From contig NZ_JABWDU010000002.1 of assembly GCF_013371465.1 (NCBI RefSeq), positions 248,001 to 312,000 of the forward strand: a DNA stretch of 64,000 bases, written 5' to 3'. Shown piece by piece: positions 1,238-5,999 of this stretch. The notes below the pieces were generated by a model. That model was not told where the DNA came from. It saw only the letters and a list, made by a program, of their open reading frames with translations, and made no database searches. The stretch comes from Ensifer oleiphilus (GTDB lineage Bacteria > Pseudomonadota > Alphaproteobacteria > Rhizobiales > Rhizobiaceae). Position 1 is the stretch's first letter. The number at the start of each line of letters is the position of its first letter. The translations under genes were made by a program, and so were the position numbers.

Positions 1238-2473
1238 TCAATCGCAGTGACGGTAACCGGTCTTGCGCGTCCTCAGGTCGAAGTGGAAATGATCCTTGTG
1301 AAACGGATCGCTGCCAGGCCCGAGCACCGTGTTGAAGTATTTGCAGCTGTCGGTGCGCACGGCCTTCAACAGTCCCTTTTCGCGAAAGGCGAAGAAGCCT
1401 TTCTTGCGCACGTCGATTTCCTTACCGTTCTTCAAGACGAACTTGCCGACGTCGATGGCGTTACCATGCGCGTGCTCGGACATCGGGTTGCCCCGGCGCG
1501 AATTCATCGTGCGGCAGGAATAACCGCCGAGCGGCTTGATCGTCTTGACGCCGGACCAGTAGCGATAGCGTGACGACGGCGCCAGTTCGTATTTCACCCA
1601 CTTCGCGAAGGCTTCGGTCACTTCGCAGTTAAGCTTGACTGCAGGCTTTACGTCGATGCCTCCGGAGAGACCGCTGAGTTGGATCGGATAGTCGATGCCG
1701 CAAGACGGACCGTTGCTGATGCGTGGGATGTCGCGGAACTCGACCCCGAGCTTGCGCAAGCGTTGGCGGCAGGCAATTTCCGAGCGCGGCATCTGGCCGG
1801 TGAACTGCGATTCCGGCTCCGACAGCGGATTGCGTGCCCGCGGCAGCATCGCCACCTCCTGCGGTTCCTGGGCGCGCTGCATTGCACGCTGACGCTCGAA
1901 GGCGAGACGACGCTGAGCTTCTTCGGCGGAAATTTGCTCCGCCGTCAAAGGCGGCAGATCCGGGTCGCCGCCAAGGCTCGCCTGCGCCTCGTTCAGCGTC
2001 TGTGGCGGGCTGCCGAGCTGACGCACATTATCCTCGCCGATGCCCCCCACAACAGGCTGGCTGGCGTTGCCCTCGGCAATCTCGTTGTTCTGCTCCTCCG
2101 CCAGCCCGACGACGGGCTGAACGCCGAGCATCGCATCCATGTTGACGCCTTCGGAAGGAATGGCGGTCGAGCCGGTATTGACCGGCTGGGCACCGGTAAG
2201 CGCCGCCTCTTCGCTATCGATCATCGGCAAGGCACGACGGGCCGGTTGATGTCTGCCGTTGCCGTTGCTGAACGTCGAAACCGGTTCTCCTGAAGGATAG
2301 GCCGCAACCTCCTGCTCCGGCACGGCATCGACCGGAACCGGTCTGATCGCACCGACGCGATCGCCGCTATCGATGCGCGCCGACGGCGTCAGCACATCGG
2401 TCGTGCAGGCGACGAGCGAGATCGACAGCACGAACGCCGTCAACGGACGATGGAGAGAGGGAACATACGCCAT
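1238..2473 (-). CDS. Extensin-like C-terminal domain lipoprotein
   Basis: The 411-residue protein starts with a signal sequence and a lipobox (SLVAC, Cys at about 23), so it is probably a lipoprotein. Residues about 30-225 are low-complexity, rich in Pro, Gln, Ala and Glu, and look like a flexible linker. Residues about 230-411 match the extensin-like C-terminal family, whose fold resembles the LAS/D-Ala-D-Ala carboxypeptidase metallopeptidases. The matching landmarks are conserved cysteines, SEHAHGNAIDVG and DPFHKDHFHFDL, which contain the expected His/Asp/His zinc ligands. A role in cell-wall peptide cleavage is inferred from the fold, not proven. The start is ATG; the ribosome binding site is weak. 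It is a single-gene unit flanked by non-coding DNA. Confidence 0.85.
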   Translation of the reverse strand: MAYVPSLHRPLTAFVLSISLVACTTDVLTPSARIDSGDRVGAIRPVPVDAVPEQEVAAYPSGEPVSTFSNGNGRHQPARRALPMIDSEEAALTGAQPVNTGSTAIPSEGVNMDAMLGVQPVVGLAEEQNNEIAEGNASQPVVGGIGEDNVRQLGSPPQTLNEAQASLGGDPDLPPLTAEQISAEEAQRRLAFERQRAMQRAQEPQEVAMLPRARNPLSEPESQFTGQMPRSEIACRQRLRKLGVEFRDIPRISNGPSCGIDYPIQLSGLSGGIDVKPAVKLNCEVTEAFAKWVKYELAPSSRYRYWSGVKTIKPLGGYSCRTMNSRRGNPMSEHAHGNAIDVGKFVLKNGKEIDVRKKGFFAFREKGLLKAVRTDSCKYFNTVLGPGSDPFHKDHFHFDLRTRKTGYRHCD

Positions 2474-2688
2474 ACCGATTTGCCGCCTTCATCCTGAACG
2501 ATATCAACGACATCGCCGCACTAATCGACGTCAAAACGGTGCAGGCCACCTGTGTCGCAAGCCGGGCACGCCGCCGAAAAAGGCCGATTTCCGCTGCATT
2601 TTATTCAAACACGGTAAATGAAGCCTTGCGAACGGCATCCAACATCCGGCAGGTCCGACGCCGGCAGCGCTCCGACGGCACGATACAA

Positions 2689-2724
2689 AAGGCCCGCGCA
2701 GAATTCTCTGCGCGGGCCTTTGCA
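2689..2724 (-). terminator. Terminator of the Kazal-module gene
   Basis: A long inverted repeat (GGCCCGCGCAGA / TCTGCGCGGGCC around an AATTC centre) lies just beyond the stop codon of the leftward Kazal gene. On the minus strand it is followed by TTTTG, so it fits a factor-independent terminator for that gene. Confidence 0.75.
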
Positions 2725-2745: not shown

Positions 2746-3297
2746 TTAGCGGCACTCACCGGGGTGCACGACCCGGAAACCGGCGCCGCCAGCCTCGCAG
2801 GAGTTCGGGAAGGTCTGGATCCGGTTGCCGCGCTGGCCGCAGACCGGCGCGTATTCGCGGGTGCAGAACTGGCCCTGCGGCGGACGGTCGTCGTCGCGGC
2901 GGCACTCGCCGGGCGCAACCACACGGAAGCCGTCGGCACGCGCCATGCAGGCGTTCGAGAAGGTCTGCTGCTGGCGGCCGCGCTGGCCGCACACAGGCGC
3001 ATATTCCCGCGTGCAAGCCTGCGGCTCCCGCTCGGGCGGACGGTAATCCGGGCGGCACTCTCCGCGATGGATCACATTGAAGCCGTCGGCCCGCGCCTGG
3101 CAGGAATTCGAGAAGGTGCGCATGCGATTGCCGCGCTCACCGCAGACAGGTGCATACTCCATCGTGCACATCGGCGGGCGGATCGGCCCCGGGCCAGGCC
3201 GCGGTTCATCGACCACGACGGTACAGGCCGACAGAAATCCGAATGCCAAAAGAATAGCCGCCCCCGGCCGCGTGAAAAGAAGTCTGAGAAGCGCCAT
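2746..3297 (-). CDS. Lipoprotein with three Kazal-type protease-inhibitor modules
   Basis: From the ATG at 3297 (preceded by AGGGGA) the protein has 183 residues. It has a signal sequence with lipobox LSAC (Cys25), a Pro-rich spacer, then three tandem modules at about 44-81, 95-132 and 145-182. Each reads C-x7-C-x13-C-x14-C with the conserved EYAPVCG, TF(S/P)N and GEC elements of Kazal-type serine-protease inhibitors. Only four of the six classical cysteines are present per module, the reduced pattern seen in bacterial Kazal-like proteins. The modules are close copies of one another, indicating internal duplication. Inhibition of host or self proteases at the outer membrane is an inference. 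A longer in-frame start 18 codons upstream lacks a signal-peptide layout. Confidence 0.85.
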   Translation of the reverse strand: MALLRLLFTRPGAAILLAFGFLSACTVVVDEPRPGPGPIRPPMCTMEYAPVCGERGNRMRTFSNSCQARADGFNVIHRGECRPDYRPPEREPQACTREYAPVCGQRGRQQQTFSNACMARADGFRVVAPGECRRDDDRPPQGQFCTREYAPVCGQRGNRIQTFPNSCEAGGAGFRVVHPGECR

Positions 3298-3583
3298 GAA
3301 TATCCCCTGGAGAGCACCGGTAGCCACCGACCCGGCGCCATGCCGTATCATTCCGCCCCCGTCCAGCCGTATCTAACCCCGCACACGGATTGGTCAAGCC
3401 CGCTTCGTCCCTGACGCACAGGCGGTTGAACAGGACGTCGAGAGATCAACGTGCGCACGCAGCGCAAGCCTTCAGCGCCGCATCCGCACTCCCGATCCCA
3501 TGGCGCGCCTCGGCGAACGCCGGAGATGGCAAAAGGCTTGCGCGCTTTCGCACGCAGGCCCTCATCAATCGTGGGATGCCATG

Positions 3584-5612: not shown

Positions 5613-5999
5613 ATGACCGCAGACACCAGACCGACCGGCGAACTGACCTTGCGCACACTGGCCATGCCAGCTGACGCCAATGCCGCCGGCGACATCTTCG
5701 GCGGCTGGGTGATGGCGCAGATGGACCTTTCCTGCGGCATCCGTGCAGCCGAGCGGGCCCGCGGCCGCGTGGTGACGGCCGCAGTCAAGGAAATGGCCTT
5801 CGCGCTGCCGGTCAAGATCGGCGATACGCTCTGCATCTACACCGATGTCGTGAAGGTCGGGCGCACCTCGATGACGCTCAAGGTCGAGGCCTGGGCGCAG
5901 CGTTATCTCTCGCACCTGATGGAGAAGGTCACCGACGCAATCTTCGTCATGGTGGCGCTCGACGAGAACGGCAAACCAAAGGTCGTGCCGGCGGAATAG
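5613..5999 (+). CDS. Acyl-CoA thioesterase, YciA-like hotdog protein
   Basis: A 128-residue single hotdog-fold protein of the YciA/BACH class, which hydrolyses short- to long-chain acyl-CoA to free acid and CoA in the cytoplasm. Family landmarks are ANAAGDIFGGWVMAQMD at residues 20-36, containing the catalytic Asp on the hotdog helix, and the VKIGDTLCIYTDV strand. Length is typical. A GGGAGA ribosome-binding site precedes the ATG. The next gene begins 11 bases after the stop and probably shares the transcript. Confidence 0.9.
   Translation: MTADTRPTGELTLRTLAMPADANAAGDIFGGWVMAQMDLSCGIRAAERARGRVVTAAVKEMAFALPVKIGDTLCIYTDVVKVGRTSMTLKVEAWAQRYLSHLMEKVTDAIFVMVALDENGKPKVVPAE

Follow-up and report, generated by a model that had tools for sequence, protein, structure and literature searches.

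A predicted envelope lipoprotein of Ensifer oleiphilus with three four-cysteine Kazal modules, and its relatives in the Rhizobiaceae

The stretch of Ensifer oleiphilus DNA that we analyzed (64,000 nucleotides, hereafter the window) encodes a predicted lipoprotein with three modules that are Kazal domains, as judged by profile matches and predicted fold. We consider it probable that this protein is an envelope lipoprotein carrying three independent canonical inhibitor heads, which would act mainly against foreign serine proteases. Inhibition of serine proteases by the modules is quite likely, and a predominantly foreign set of targets (enzymes from a plant, a protist, or a competing microbe) is a tentative suggestion. 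In the mechanism that we propose, three serine protease inhibitor heads of the standard mechanism would sit on flexible linkers and be tethered by a lipid, with both the anchor and the outer-membrane site being predictions. Each head would be held together by two disulfides (C2-C4 and C3-C6), with the 1-5 bridge gone and the β-hairpin lengthened, and the loop C-T-x-E-Y-x-P-V-C would serve as a substrate-like plug for the protease. Head 1, with Met at P1, would be directed toward chymotrypsin-, elastase-, or subtilisin-like enzymes, and heads 2 and 3, with Arg at P1, toward trypsin-like enzymes. The envelope would be guarded from foreign serine proteases in this way, with an ecotin-like mode of working that implies no kinship to ecotin. 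A first-pass annotation of the same DNA had already suggested that host or predator proteases could be blocked, which was a reasonable guess.

The interval given in that annotation (2746-3297) corresponds exactly to the extent of the gene including its stop codon, while the minus strand had not been given there (Table 1). A longer frame with an ATG at 3351 is also present. At the position of the 3297 start, 14 of the 15 other copies from the genus have ATG and one (L004) has TTG. Downstream of the gene, the hairpin from 2724 to 2684 reached -32.5 kcal/mol (z = -5.1), a value that none of 200 shuffles equaled. The consensus terminator scan did not list this hairpin, and the sole terminator-like site that it reported, at 3256-3269, lies inside the gene (1 found vs. 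1.0 expected). Since the hairpin follows the gene, solitary transcription may follow as well, and the Kazal lipoprotein gene is probably transcribed alone.

Table 1. Coordinates of the Kazal lipoprotein gene and its features within the window.
Feature	Position	Strand	Basis
Lipoprotein gene, three four-cysteine Kazal modules, 183 aa	2746..3297, stop codon included	minus	translation, Pfam, genus orthologues
Probable ribosome-binding site AGGGG, 6 bases before ATG	3304..3308	minus	read from sequence
Signal peptide, residues 1-24	3226..3297	minus	inferred from sequence
Lipobox Cys25 (LSAC, residues 22-25), predicted lipid attachment; Thr next	3223..3225	minus	pattern
Pro-rich stalk, residues 26-43	3169..3222	minus	sequence; low pLDDT in model
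Kazal module 1, residues 44-81, P1 Met46	3055..3168	minus	sequence, module alignment
Kazal module 2, residues 95-132, P1 Arg97	2902..3015	minus	sequence, module alignment, structure model
Kazal module 3, residues 145-182, P1 Arg147	2752..2865	minus	sequence, module alignment
Strong hairpin and short U run, probable terminator	2684..2724	minus	fold computation

The description of the modules as Kazal-like was borne out by matches to the Pfam profiles Kazal_1 (PF00050; E = 9.4e-15, 54.8 bits vs. a cut-off of 21) and Kazal_2 (PF07648; E = 8.6e-14, 51.8 bits vs. a cut-off of 22.8), as well as by a predicted fold that resembles solved Kazal inhibitors. Since both profiles scored above their cut-offs, the module pattern does not represent a chance match. 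Furthermore, all 41 members of A2, which comprises the window protein and 40 of the 51 proteins listed in a filtered set of relatives, match both profiles. The NCBIfam profile search revealed no model near its cut-off for the protein. A zinc-ribbon (PF11781) and SSI stayed below their cut-offs for the window protein and are probably chance or cysteine-spacing matches; of the 41 relatives, 11 matched PF11781 and 6 matched SSI at E-values of up to 1e-3, with a lowest SSI value of 3.3e-6.

The model of module 2, based on 99 aligned modules, has a mean pLDDT of 94.9 and shows the strand-strand-helix-strand order of Kazal domains, in which the first two strands span five residues each and the predicted reactive loop lies exposed between cysteines 2 and 3 (classical numbering). 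It superimposes on the leech tryptase inhibitor (1an1_I; Z = 6.5, 0.8 Å over 36 residues) and on GmSPI-2 (4hgu; Z = 6.1, 1.2 Å over 36 residues), and its best solved fold matches are Kazal inhibitors together with one follistatin-type chain, all with Z below 8. With Foldseek alone, the single module gave weak E-values (best 0.051), and the full-length model was matched best by rhodniin (4.9e-4), a Kazal inhibitor with two domains. The full-length model (pTM 0.30) contains three confident heads joined by lower-confidence linkers, which agrees with the three separate heads proposed before; the modules may be pictured as beads on a string, whose relative arrangement we leave aside at this pTM. 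When the profile of 99 modules was compared with the PDB, termite TFP4 (E = 4.5e-8) and GmSPI-2 were closest, the latter also being the nearest PDB protein by sequence (E = 1.5e-4).

The first-pass annotation had reported a C-x7-C-x13-C-x14-C spacing with four instead of six cysteines, and this spacing is exact in all three modules of the window. It had also proposed a search for the four-cysteine pattern in other genomes, which has now yielded 130 distinct modules in 62 relatives, all fitting the pattern with no cysteine in between. For this count, the gaps were left free and only frames holding at least one strict module were used: C-x7-C-x13-C was found in 130 of 130 modules, followed by x14 in 127 and by x15 in 3. 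The four-cysteine make-up and the 13-residue gap between the second and third of these cysteines likewise occur in all 53 distinct modules of the first set, again with free gaps.

A classical Kazal domain has six cysteines that form the bridges 1-5, 2-4, and 3-6. According to the alignment to 2m5x and 4hgu, the window modules are not of this classical type: cysteines 1 and 5 are missing, and cysteines 2, 3, 4, and 6 are kept, as in two-bridge domains of the GmSPI-2 kind. In the GmSPI-2 kind, however, ten residues separate cysteine 3 from cysteine 4, where all 130 modules have 13, and C-x13-C in place of the usual x10 implies a β-hairpin that is three residues longer.

Published work on related inhibitors allows for a closer comparison. 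Galleria mellonella silk proteinase inhibitor 2 (GmSPI-2; PDB 2m5x, 4hgu) is described there as having bridges 2-4 and 3-6 only and as inhibiting subtilisin and proteinase K (PMC4169406); it shares four cysteines as well as C-x7-C and C-x14-C with the window modules but is a single free module from insect silk with a C-x10-C hairpin and Thr at P1. Domain 1 of horseshoe crab CrSPI-1 (PDB 3pis) also has two bridges, Cys1-Cys19 and Cys8-Cys35, and the loops of both CrSPI-1 domains bind subtilisin (PMC3082530). It differs in a loop that is one residue shorter, an x10 hairpin, another C-terminal part, and a three-bridge partner domain. The extended β-hairpin is documented for TFP4 from the termite defence gland (PDB 2n17), which resembles module 1 in its C-x7-C-x13-C spacing and Met P1 and which blocks chymotrypsin (Ki 91 nM) and elastase while leaving trypsin unaffected (PMC4433142); unlike the window protein, TFP4 is soluble, with six cysteines, three disulfides, and a longer C-terminal part. 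The loss of the 1-5 bridge and the long hairpin are each known from animals.

Four-cysteine Kazal domains of another type occur, some of them active, in the multi-domain proteins of EPI1a from Phytophthora infestans and human LEKTI. As stated in one study, EPI1a and most LEKTI domains are devoid of cysteines 3 and 6, EPI1a is a two-disulfide domain blocking a plant subtilase, and LEKTI domain 1 inhibited no standard protease (PMC1236909). The inactivity of LEKTI domain 1 weighs against our preferred reading. These eukaryotic domains have lost cysteines 3 and 6 rather than 1 and 5; an assignment of the window modules, which keep cysteines 3 and 6, to the EPI1a-type class was therefore ruled out. 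Ecotin, presented in a review as a bacterial envelope serine protease inhibitor with broad targets (PMC9904509), is a functional parallel only; it is dimeric, periplasmic, and from an unrelated family, and the window protein gave no match to its profile PF03974 at E-values up to 1. The Kazal literature that we found deals mostly with animals and oomycetes. A Kazal-like protein is mentioned for the bacterium Nitrosomonas europaea in the same study as EPI1a (PMC1236909), and papers pairing Kazal with Rhizobium, Sinorhizobium, or Ensifer concern, in the portions consulted, oomycete inhibitors or human LEKTI, as does PMC8364246. Among the papers listed in our literature searches, most of which were judged by their listing, none dealt with this family or described two bridges together with a long hairpin for a bacterial protein that is tethered, and activity data for the family were not found.

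The three modules had previously been called near-duplicates. While they are indeed alike, with 26, 26, and 28 of 38 residues identical between modules (84, 81, and 86 of 114 nucleotides), this wording is slightly strong, as the same module is closer across species. Since the modules differ more from each other than the same module does across species, the repeat predates the genus and a recent amplification of modules was ruled out. Within the 62 distinct proteins, three modules were found in 30, two in 23, and one in 9, with the loci being short, so that a few proteins may be cut.

The earlier assignment as a lipoprotein is likewise supported by pattern, through a signal peptide and the LSAC lipobox. 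In the full-length model, the signal region forms helices at residues 3-9 and 11-22, within a low-confidence part. Cys25 is invariant in the A2 alignment, whose members had been chosen with a lipobox filter; without this filter, 59 of the 62 distinct relatives carry a lipobox-like motif. The Thr that follows the lipobox cysteine is compatible with sorting to the outer membrane under the E. coli rule.

The P1 position of the putative reactive loop is occupied by Arg or Met in 118 of the 130 distinct modules (Arg 76, Met 42, Gln 5, Lys 3, Asn 2, Leu 1, Glu 1), with Met, Arg, and Arg in the heads of the window protein. Lys or Arg at P1 goes along with trypsin-like targets and Met with chymotrypsin- or elastase-like ones, as stated in the study on TFP4 (PMC4433142). 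Neighboring positions are also strongly conserved in the 99 modules of alignment A3 (99 of 108 module references were used), with Thr at P2 in 91, Glu at P1' in 85, and Tyr or Phe at P2' in 99. The filtered set of relatives had been required to contain a lipobox whose first residue is L, V, or I, an Asn two residues before the third cysteine, and PVC in the loop, by which at least the loci L053 and L066 were lost. Because Asn, Pro, Val, and Cys are in part made invariant in A3 by this filter, we recounted the residues with the free pattern: Asn21, Pro7, and Val8, none of which this pattern requires, are present in 130 of 130 modules. We take Asn21 to be the equivalent of Asn33 in OMTKY3, which supports the reactive loop there.

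For eight contact positions of Kazal inhibitors, the mean entropy was 1.19 bits, compared to 1.34 bits for the 26 other non-cysteine positions. The reactive loop is thus conserved rather than hypervariable, contrary to what rapid coevolution with the proteases of one host, as in an arms race, would lead one to expect. Within the genus, the median dN/dS of 0.14 (105 pairs of 15 genes, with L008 left out due to its different length) indicates purifying selection; over six regions, it ranged from a minimum of 0.06 in module 1 to a maximum of 0.21 in module 2. Switches of P1 among the same 15 genes are confined to module 2 (Arg in 6, Met in 9).

The Kazal lipoprotein gene belongs to the core genome of the genus, being present in 16 of 16 genomes, the genome of origin included. 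Within the Rhizobiaceae, it was found in at least 120 of 247 genomes and 61 of 109 genera. The class-wide draw revealed it in at least 10 of 289 genomes, including its own, and the order-wide draw in at least 5 of 150, four of them (again including its own) from the same family; absences are upper bounds in the family, class, and order draws, as scoring covered at most 30, 26, and 50 candidates from each genome, respectively. PF00050 matched 17 of 398 genomes in a phylum-wide draw, all from the same class and ten, its own included, from the same family, with this profile alone missing several genomes found by A1.

Outside the family, most readable loci belong to a VCGCDGKTYGN subtype that has additional cysteines and whose hairpin is short, the exceptions with a 13-residue gap being L069 and four Novosphingobium loci (L035-L038). 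This reading covers 24 loci by pattern; no hit was obtained for L070, L071, L076, L080, or L087, and the one for L089 was spurious. VCGCDGKTYGN-like loops were seen at L073, L075, L077, L079, L088, L090-L094, and L111, including one QCGCDG and several with a preceding cysteine-rich stretch. The reactive loop of these other alphaproteobacterial Kazal proteins (e.g., L088, L091, L093) is similar to that of the window protein, but the extra cysteines and short hairpin set them apart. Furthermore, L072 and L074 contain frames of 509 and 520 residues, apparently from another family, with a Kazal-like module at the end, whose second and third cysteines are spaced as C-x14-C.

Candidate targets were also sought in the genome of origin. 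Its four matches to the trypsin family all combine Trypsin_2 with PDZ domains and are therefore HtrA-like, and it also encodes one S8 subtilase (G000:C26:502127-503530; L116:2128-3531), for which export appears likely by eye only. The N-terminal stretch of this subtilase is rich in Asp and Gly. With HtrA-like enzymes and a single S8 protease, the genome itself offers few of the enzymes that Kazal inhibitors usually target. That the lipoprotein protects the envelope by acting as a brake on this subtilase or on proteases of the HtrA type appears unlikely. S8 relatives do co-occur with the Kazal gene, which is present in 27 of 36 genomes with an S8 relative vs. 93 of 211 without one (Fisher p = 0.0009, ignoring phylogeny and genome size; up to 6 candidates per genome scored) and, by genus, in 19 of 25 vs. 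42 of 84 (p = 0.024; genome size may confound). This exceeds expectation and favors an own target in some species, and the conserved P1 residues would suit a fixed own target. However, 93 of the 120 Kazal-positive genomes, including G008 of the same genus, yielded no S8 relative at 1e-40, the S8 and Kazal genes lie on separate contigs in the genome of origin, and we know of no HtrA protease that is a Kazal target. Based on these 93 genomes, we prefer foreign proteases as the main targets, although a target within the bacterium's own genome is to be taken seriously as a rival explanation. Somewhat less probable again is that the modules serve for binding or as structural beads, like those in follistatin, with the protein acting as an adhesin or envelope spacer. 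Kazal-like modules of follistatin, FSTL1, and complement C6, a kind that need not inhibit, are among the fold matches, and purifying selection says only that the sequence matters. Yet the consensus of inhibitors is retained in the exposed loop, with Thr at P2, Glu at P1', Tyr at P2', and the invariant Asn, P1 is nearly always Arg or Met, both of which are inhibitor-type residues, and TFP4 and GmSPI-2, which came closest among solved proteins in the profile comparison, are active inhibitors.

If the heads do inhibit, they might be directed at the host, shielding the bacterium from apoplastic serine proteases of plants in the way Phytophthora EPI1 acts on tomato P69B. Several relatives originate from plant-associated rhizobia, according to record titles and hosts, and the two-disulfide domain EPI1a provides a precedent for blocking a plant subtilase (PMC1236909); on the other hand, it is the other cysteine pair (3 and 6) that EPI1a lacks, relatives were also found in Novosphingobium as well as in Pseudochrobactrum, for which cattle lymph nodes are the listed source, and the loop is conserved, not diversifying. 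We regard this reading as improbable, on a par with the brake on own enzymes. A broader role is possible but doubtful, in which tethered one- to three-headed Kazal lipoproteins with Arg/Met sites, as a distinct subtype with two bridges and a long hairpin, would substitute for ecotin in the Rhizobiaceae and form a broad shield against proteases of protists, plants, and rival microbes. Ecotin was found in 1 of 247 Rhizobiaceae genomes, as a partial match, with the E. coli control being positive, and PF03974 had no match in the genome of origin; the ecotin review places ecotin in Rhizobium (PMC9904509).

Should inhibition of foreign proteases, the reading that we prefer, hold true, it would constitute a rhizobial envelope defense against proteolysis in about half of the sampled Rhizobiaceae, whereas inactive modules would leave an ordinary envelope lipoprotein family. 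The modules would also show which disulfide a bacterial Kazal domain can spare.

With respect to genomic context, flanking genes for an MCP and an extensin-like protein (PF06904) are kept at 9 of 19 named loci (L020-L028), whose titles name Ensifer or Sinorhizobium except for one "Rhizobiales bacterium" and Rhizobium sp. Leaf453; neither gene was found beside the Kazal gene at the other 10. A Sinorhizobium meliloti record has the same order of MCP, Kazal, and extensin-like genes, with the Kazal gene annotated as "hypothetical protein". This shared order suggests that the gene is vertically inherited. A phage or mobile origin was ruled out by the shared gene order together with the phage search, in which none of 50,697 records matched at 1e-5, and the plasmid matches, which comprise 9 records of 0.43 to 4.6 Mb that are all typed as non-mobilizable. 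An operon with the extensin-like gene was also ruled out, given the strong hairpin between the two genes and the lack of the extensin-like gene at 10 of 19 loci. The extensin-like protein of the window (1238-2473, minus strand; PF06904, Extensin-like_C), which adjoins the Kazal gene in Ensifer-type genomes, has a lipobox-like LVAC near its start. At L023, a second frame from about position 5820 (corresponding to L008:2402-2941, G015) encodes an adjoining three-module copy that is 51% identical and carries Met, Gln, and Gln at P1, so that its predicted specificity appears to have diverged. Finally, CP090106.1 (L082), although labeled as plasmid pSymB, is 3.72 Mb long and carries uvrB, and may be a mislabeled chromosome.
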